From Salminus brasiliensis (lineage: Eukaryota; Chordata; Actinopteri; Characiformes; Bryconidae): 64,000 nucleotides of DNA. This document shows positions 27,718-61,088 of the stretch, piece after piece (within the stretch, counting starts at the first letter, position 1; every line of letters starts with the position of its first letter). Where the stretch lies: contig NC_132892.1 in NCBI RefSeq assembly GCF_030463535.1, forward strand, positions 29,985,341 to 30,049,340, in the 5' to 3' direction. A program made the position numbers and the translations under genes. A model generated the notes under the pieces. That model worked only from the letters and a program-made list of their open reading frames with translations. It was not told the DNA's origin and did no database searches.

Positions 27718-37637
<9,920 letters not shown>

Positions 37638-37703
37638 CTAGACATCTCCACAGCAACCGGGCAGCACCTAGACCCACCTAAACCCCCCCACTCACAACTG
37701 TAA
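37638..37703 (+). other. mdh1: mdh1 readthrough extension ending in Ser-Gln-Leu
   Basis: The in-frame codons after the TGA begin CTA and run 21 residues to a TAA. The last three are S-Q-L, which fits a PTS1-like peroxisomal signal. UGA-CUA is the motif that drives stop readthrough in vertebrate MDH1 (and UGA-CUA-G in LDHB). The extended protein would be 355 residues counting the residue placed at the stop. The codons are seen. The readthrough and peroxisomal targeting are inferred from what is known of MDH1. Confidence 0.65.
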
Positions 37704-37944
37704 AACTCAGAACAACTCCAGTGCTGCCCGTGTGTGTGTGTGAGTGTGTGAGAGAGAAAGGAGTATATATATGTGTGTGTGTATGTGTGTGACCATTATT
37801 TCATACAGTAACAGAAACAATGAGGATCTGTATTACGGCAGTGAATCCGCTGGGTCTTACTGGGACAACACCTAGAGGAGAAGCTTTCAGGGTTGGAAAC
37901 GCACACTGTTGTCCCACTCAACGTAACGATACTTACTGTGTATC

Positions 37945-37950
37945 AATAAA
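37945..37950 (+). terminator. mdh1: mdh1 polyadenylation signal AATAAA
   Basis: Canonical AATAAA lies about 308 bases after the stop codon, followed by a T-rich and GT-containing stretch. This gives a 3' UTR of roughly 330 bases. Confidence 0.75.
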
Positions 37951-38010
37951 AGGAAAGACTTAACGTGTTGATTTTTTTTTTATTATTGTGAAATTTAACC
38001 TACTACACAC

Positions 38011-38199: not shown

Positions 38200-39310
38200 T
38201 ACAATAATGTTACTTATTCCTAGTCCACAGTTCTAGGTTTTCTATATTGATAAGAAGTAAATTGAACTATTTTTTTCATCAGGTTTAAAATATAAATTCT
38301 ACTAATAAAAGGTAAAGGTCAGATTTAAAATGTTGGTATAATATAAATAAAGTAGAGATAAAATATCTTTCTCACAGTTTAAAGTAATTATTTTCAAATG
38401 TCAAGAACAAGTCTGTATTTTGAAATACATTTTCAAACTATTTTTGGATTTTAAATCAAAATTTTATTACTTACTTGTTTTCATAGAAAGTATTTTTAGA
38501 TGCCACATCAATCTTTTTAGAAAATAAGTCAAGTTTCTGTCAAGTTTTAGAGACATAAATATTTCCAGAAAATAAGAATAAATATTTATTTATTTTTAGA
38601 TTAGATTCAACTTTTACGGTCATTGTGCAAAAGTCACACTTTTAGATACTACATCAACATAAAAAAAAGTCAGAATTCTTAGATACTACATCAACCTAAA
38701 AAATAGAGGAATCAATATTTCCAGAAAATAAGTATAAATACTTATTTAAAAGTATAGCAATATGTTCAGATGTTACATCAGAAGTCTAAGAAAATAAGTC
38801 AGAATGTTTAGATACTACATCAAACTTTTAAGAAAATAGACAATTTAGATAAAGAAATGTAAAGAAATTCCATCAACTTTTTAAAGAGTTTTTAGCTAGA
38901 TCAATATTCTAGAAAATAAGTATAAACACCTCTTTATAAGTGCATATATGTATTTCTAGATGTAATATCAACATTTGAAGAAACTAAGTCAGAATGTTTG
39001 GATACTACATTAACATTTTAAGTAAAGTCTGAATTTTCTGAAAATATGTTACATCAACATTTTAAGTCAGAATTTTTAGATACATCAATATTTCCAGAAA
39101 AAAACGTAAGTAAATAATAAGTATAAATATCTATATATACATATTTTCAGATCAACATTTTAAGAAACTAAGTCAGAATGTTTAGATGCTAGATTATTAT
39201 TTTCAGAAAATGTTACATCAAATTTAGAAAAATACAATTTTCAGAGACAACTACTATCAACCTTTTTTTTGAAAAATAACGTAATAAATCGGTATTTTAA
39301 GATCAACATT

Positions 39311-39650: not shown

Positions 39651-39699
39651 TACTTATATACTATATGTATATATATATAGTTTGGAGACTATATATATA

Positions 39700-40540
39700 T
39701 AAGAACATACATTGAGGAAAAAAGAAAAGAAAAAAAAATATATATATATATATATATACAAGAACATACGTTGAGGGGGAAAAAAATATATATAAGAACA
39801 TACATTGAGGAAAAATATATATATATATACAAGAACATATGTTGAGGGAAAAAAAAATATATATATACAAGAACATACATTGAGGGGAAAAAAAATATAT
39901 ATATATATACAAGAACATACACTGAGGGGAAAAAATATATATATACAAGAACATACATTGAGGGGAAAAAATATATATATAAGAACATACATTGAGGAAA
40001 AATATATACATATACAAGAACATACGTTGAGGAAAAAAAAAAAATATATATATACAAGAACATACATTGAGGGGGAAAAATATATATATATAAGAACATA
40101 CATTGAGGAAAAAAATATATGTATATACAAGAACATACGTTGAGGAAAAAAAATATATATACAAGAACATACATTGAGGGGGAAAAAAAATATATATATA
40201 AGAACATACATTGAGGAAAAAAAATATATATATACAAGAACATATGTTGAGGGAAAAAAAAATATATATAAGAACATACATTGAGGAAAAAAAAAAATAT
40301 ATATACAAGAACATATGTTGAGGGGAAAAAAATATATATACAAGAACATACATTGAGGGGGAAAAAAATATATATAAGAACATACATTGAGGAAAAATAT
40401 ATATATATATATAAGAACATACGTTGAGGAAAAATATATATATATACAAGAACATACGTTGAGGAAAAAAAATATATATAAGAACATACATTGAGGAAAA
40501 AAAAATATATATATAAGAACATACGTTGAGGAAAAAAAAA
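39700..40540. repeat. About 23-copy AAGAACATACATTGAGG minisatellite
   Basis: Units of 32-41 bases: AAGAACATACRTTGAGG, an A-rich run, then (TA)n. Length changes in the A and TA runs shift the frame, yet no stops arise on the - strand. So three overlapping spurious frames of 309-485 codons result. Not coding. Confidence 0.95.
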
Positions 40541-40554
40541 AAACAGGGAGGAGA

Positions 40555-42154: not shown

Positions 42155-61088
<18,934 letters not shown>

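Follow-up and report, generated by a model that had tools for sequence, protein, structure and literature searches.

The mdh1 gene of the fish Salminus brasiliensis carries what is probably a working fish form of the known MDH1x cytosol/peroxisome device, with a weakened targeting signal. We put the probability of this reading at about 0.72. Gene identity, readthrough motif, open frame and terminal tripeptide are all established here, within a 64,000-nucleotide window that comprises the whole stretch of DNA analysed. The first-pass annotation had described a TGA-CTA stop followed by 21 open codons, a TAA and an S-Q-L end. That description proved exact (TGA 37635-37637, TAA 37701-37703); its range, 37620-37703, includes five codons 5' of the TGA. 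MDH1 readthrough onto a hidden peroxisomal signal (PTS1) is already established, fish included, and the novelty is limited to the SQL end.

The host gene is intact. Its splice-bounded exons E2-E9, eight in all, run from 28487 to 37637 on the forward strand and join into an open 332-aa product. This product matches cytosolic malate dehydrogenase chains of solved structure in the PDB over residues 1-330 (E ~1e-182), whereas MDH1B chains reach merely ~1e-29 to 1e-26. By sequence, the gene is orthologous to the cytosolic MDH1 of vertebrates. An AATAAA hexamer at 37945-37950 places the readthrough extension within the mdh1 3' UTR. A degenerate DNA pattern for the mdh1 exon peptide NDFSRGKMD and its like returned 0 matches in viral contigs and 15 in genome contigs, every one of them in a record titled as bacterial or archaeal; on translation, nine read as bacterial malate dehydrogenase ends and five as unrelated frames (two partial). 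Long (CT)n microsatellites at ~36138-36188 and ~36393-36501 abut the 3' splice sites of exons 7 and 8, and these variable-length repeats seem to act as the polypyrimidine tracts of both exons.

Downstream of mdh1 lie repeats and then a second gene. Degenerate repeats at 38491-39217, which form two six-copy families (of 41 and 47 bases) around AGATACTACATCAA, separate mdh1 from an AT-rich tandem array of 24 copies at ~35-base spacing (39685-40542). Beyond them, 4 of the 10 open frames submitted to Pfam matched UDPGP, from 53.0 to 58.8 kb, and more ugp2-like stretches up to ~61 kb were recognised by eye. MDH1 and UGP2 presumably adjoin in human as well. The window held 0 Rfam matches at the gathering threshold and 0 ARAGORN tRNA genes.

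Table 1. Features of the mdh1 locus and its surroundings, in window coordinates.
Feature	Position	Strand	Basis or remark
mdh1 exon 1, candidate	near 27718	+	probably just ATG, then GTGAG
mdh1 exon 2	28487..28585	+	splice-bounded, joined CDS open; PDB match
mdh1 exon 3	29195..29291	+	joined CDS
mdh1 exon 4	33479..33654	+	joined CDS
mdh1 exon 5	34648..34770	+	joined CDS
mdh1 exon 6	35447..35623	+	joined CDS
mdh1 exon 7	36191..36304	+	joined CDS
mdh1 exon 8	36504..36593	+	joined CDS
mdh1 terminal exon (E9), coding part	37515..37637	+	ends LSFLGV-TGA; joined CDS and PDB match
Readthrough element TGA CTAGACA (UGA CUA G, +8 A, +9 C)	37635..37644	+	equals human MDH1 over 7 bases 3' of stop
Predicted readthrough extension LDISTATGQHLDPPKPPHSQL	37638..37700	+	21 sense codons
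Inverted repeat, 5' arm CGGGCAGCAC	37658..37667	+	inside extension, starts at 21st base after TGA; lead only
PTS1-like C-terminal tripeptide, TCA CAA CTG = Ser-Gln-Leu	37692..37700	+	read from sequence; SQL known in PRDX5
Second stop TAA	37701..37703	+	
Inverted repeat, 3' arm GTGCTGCCCG	37721..37730	+	3' of second stop; lead only
AATAAA	37945..37950	+	read directly from sequence
ugp2 (UDP-glucose pyrophosphorylase) exons	~53057-61085	+	Pfam UDPGP matches and recognition by eye

The stop codon sits in a context of the human MDH1 type. Directly 3' of the TGA stands CTAGACATC, and 7 of the 10 bases 3' of the stop (the first seven, CTAGACA) are identical to human MDH1, versus only 1 of the 10 bases on the 5' side. 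That UGA-CUA promotes readthrough, as the earlier annotation had stated, is experimentally grounded: PMC5133446 reports ~4% readthrough for human MDH1, dependent on UGA CUA, with every tested change within this motif reducing it and with Trp and Arg inserted at the stop. Measured values in PMC4359377 are 2.91% for human MDH1 and 1.55% for LDHB.

Model scores rank this stop near the top of the window. Under the LINiter regression coefficients of PMC4359377, a weak model for which the authors themselves give a correlation of 0.34, the mdh1 stop scores 0.621, against 0.816 for human MDH1, which is the model maximum, and 0.608 for human LDHB. Four other contexts chosen from the same table score 0.09-0.43 (6 of its 18 contexts were scored overall). 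The drop to the LDHB level arises because the bases 5' of the stop differ from those of human MDH1. Across both strands of the whole window, just 2 of 6848 stop triplets score at least as high as this one, itself included. PMC12233894, which stresses the bases 5' of the stop, describes G at -3, C at +9 and C at -5 as frequent among efficient contexts; of these three, the mdh1 stop lacks only the C at -5. Motif abundance does not exceed chance: the window has 4 copies of TGACTAG versus 11.3 expected. CTAGACA occurs 12 times on the two strands. The above-chance feature is the position of the motif at the mdh1 stop, rather than the motif itself.

Chance could supply the open frame far more readily than the peptide end. 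In 20,000 dinucleotide shuffles of 37638-37960, a frame of at least 21 codons stayed open in 26%, and open-frame length was therefore rejected as evidence for function. Third-position GC is 0.57 in the 21-codon extension versus 0.74 in the mdh1 CDS, a comparison of little weight with so few codons, so codon composition lends no support to coding. Both points would suit a normal 3' UTR in which the open frame and the SQL end are coincidental and have no function. Yet the context belongs to the strongest known class, equals human MDH1 over seven bases and stands at the stop of a gene known for readthrough, and targeting-like ends are rare among the shuffles: SQL in 0.035%, S-x-L in 0.76%, and a PTS1-like end in 0.29% by a strict form made for this analysis (SQL excluded), 0.63% by the PMC4690255 expression, which lists SQL among PTS1 ends, and 0.70% by the PMC4207609 expression, which is written without SQL. 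A functionless coincidence is thus very improbable.

A peroxisomal MDH1 made through a hidden PTS1, another element of the first-pass annotation, is well documented. PMC5133446 describes MDH1x import by this route as conserved in vertebrates, with a functional PTS1 for human and zebra finch MDH1x and readthrough demonstrated for human; PMC4207609 traces conservation of the hidden MDH1 PTS1 through animals as far as Hydra. For zebrafish, PMC8919083 reports an Mdh1x, the readthrough isoform of Mdh1aa (NP_001303854.1), ending SRL. The S. brasiliensis locus shares with vertebrate MDH1x the gene, the UGA CUA G context (CTAGACA as in human), the in-frame extension and a PTS1-like end. Counting the stop residue, the extension is of similar length, at 22 residues here and 19 in human MDH1x. 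It departs from them in the bases 5' of the stop, which differ from human, and in ending SQL rather than SRL (zebra finch) or CRL (human). Like zebrafish Mdh1x, it involves a fish mdh1 whose UGA, when read through, would lead to a PTS1-like end just before a downstream UAA, and again the tripeptide sets the two apart (SRL there, SQL here). Mammalian LDHBx (PMC4359377) is alike in that a cytosolic dehydrogenase exposes a hidden PTS1 upon UGA CUA G readthrough, with a similar model score, but it is a different gene and is reported as mammal-limited.

The SQL tripeptide has a precedent as a targeting signal outside this gene. The last 12 residues of the extension are HLDPPKPPHSQL, and their final three are identical to the end of PRDX5, where SQL is named as the peroxisomal signal (PMC8606161, PMC6770548, PMC7023504). 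In PRDX5, unlike mdh1, SQL lies in the normal frame without readthrough. Its fate in fish is described differently by two sources: PMC8919083 reports the Prdx5 PTS1 as lost in most teleosts, in contrast to PMC8606161, which calls it highly conserved in animals. PMC8919083 also rates zebrafish Crot, which ends SQL, as weak, with a negative PTS1 score. PMC4822787 was rejected as a source for the SQL signal, since SQL there is the database language. The consulted portions of the PTS1 and PRDX5 literature do not demonstrate SQL-driven import in any teleost, and the consulted text portions of the MDH1-readthrough literature contain no SQL-ending MDH1x.

Among published MDH1x forms, SQL stands apart. 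According to PMC5133446, mammalian MDH1x ends CRL and non-mammalian MDH1x SRL (all of them in its results, 'excluding amphibia' in its discussion), and import is better with SRL than with CRL. The fish and bird form normally carries SRL, the stronger signal; by ending SQL, this gene therefore breaks with the non-mammalian pattern instead of swapping a mammalian signal for one typical of fish. The claim that this gene keeps dual targeting by means of a non-canonical SQL thus stands in part: mdh1 identity, the motif and the agreement of SQL with the PRDX5 PTS1 speak for it, whereas the usual fish form is SRL. If the ancestor had CGA, a single CpG-type transition from CGA (Arg) to CAA (Gln) would have turned SRL into SQL.

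The principal alternative is that the readthrough motif has been retained while the targeting signal decays from SRL to SQL, so that Mdh1x would be made and hardly imported, perhaps because this copy is under less constraint than a second teleost mdh1. We consider this unlikely, though it is the alternative with most to recommend it. The SRL end of published non-mammalian MDH1x, amphibia excepted (PMC5133446), and the weak, negatively scored SQL of zebrafish Crot (PMC8919083) both point toward decay. So does zebrafish nomenclature: both mdh1aa and mdh1ab are current as gene names there, and PMC8919083 assigns the readthrough isoform to Mdh1aa. Against decay, SQL is the named peroxisomal signal of PRDX5, all of UGA CUA G A C is retained, and an S-x-L end is uncommon in shuffled sequence, although the same picture would be expected had constraint been lost only recently. 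A sequencing error, or a rare allele in a species that carries SRL, is an extremely improbable source of SQL; CAA and CGA differ by one base and a single sequence was at hand, but the mdh1 exons and reading frame are intact.

An inverted repeat spans the second stop. Its perfect 10-bp GC-rich stem pairs the mdh1 extension with sequence past the TAA. A stem of 10 bp arose in 0 of 300 shuffles and one of 9 bp in 3 of 300, figures for a stem that was noticed after the fact. The fold of 37638-37760 has a z of -2.59, with 4 of 200 shuffles folding equally well, and 2 of 160 spaced background windows (40 shuffles each) were as low; the extension by itself shows no folding advantage over its shuffles (z +0.5). 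Human MDH1 readthrough is described in PMC5133446 as independent of its extension sequence. One highly doubtful extrapolation is that the hairpin raises or regulates readthrough while the change from SRL to SQL weakens import, the cytosol/peroxisome split of Mdh1 having been retuned on two sides in this fish lineage. If so, leak rate multiplied by signal strength would set the level of peroxisomal Mdh1x.

A working MDH1x device with a weakened signal, the reading we favour, would operate as follows. Most ribosomes would terminate at the TGA and yield cytosolic Mdh1. A small share, roughly 1-4% if leakiness here resembles that of the human contexts, would read through the leaky UGA CUA G, probably decoding UGA as Trp or Arg as in human cells, and would add 22 residues ending SQL. 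PEX5 in this fish may then accept SQL as a weak PTS1 and bring part of the Mdh1x into peroxisomes, where, as part of a malate/oxaloacetate shuttle, the enzyme could reoxidise NADH.

Few examples of functional stop-codon readthrough in vertebrates are as well supported as MDH1x. Against the published non-mammalian MDH1x pattern, a fish that has SQL instead of SRL would stand out as an exception. PMC5133446 proposes a link between the strength of the MDH1x PTS1 and the occurrence of LDHBx in mammals, and a fish with SQL would serve as a natural experiment on whether MDH1x targeting is able to weaken in a lineage reported to be without LDHBx.
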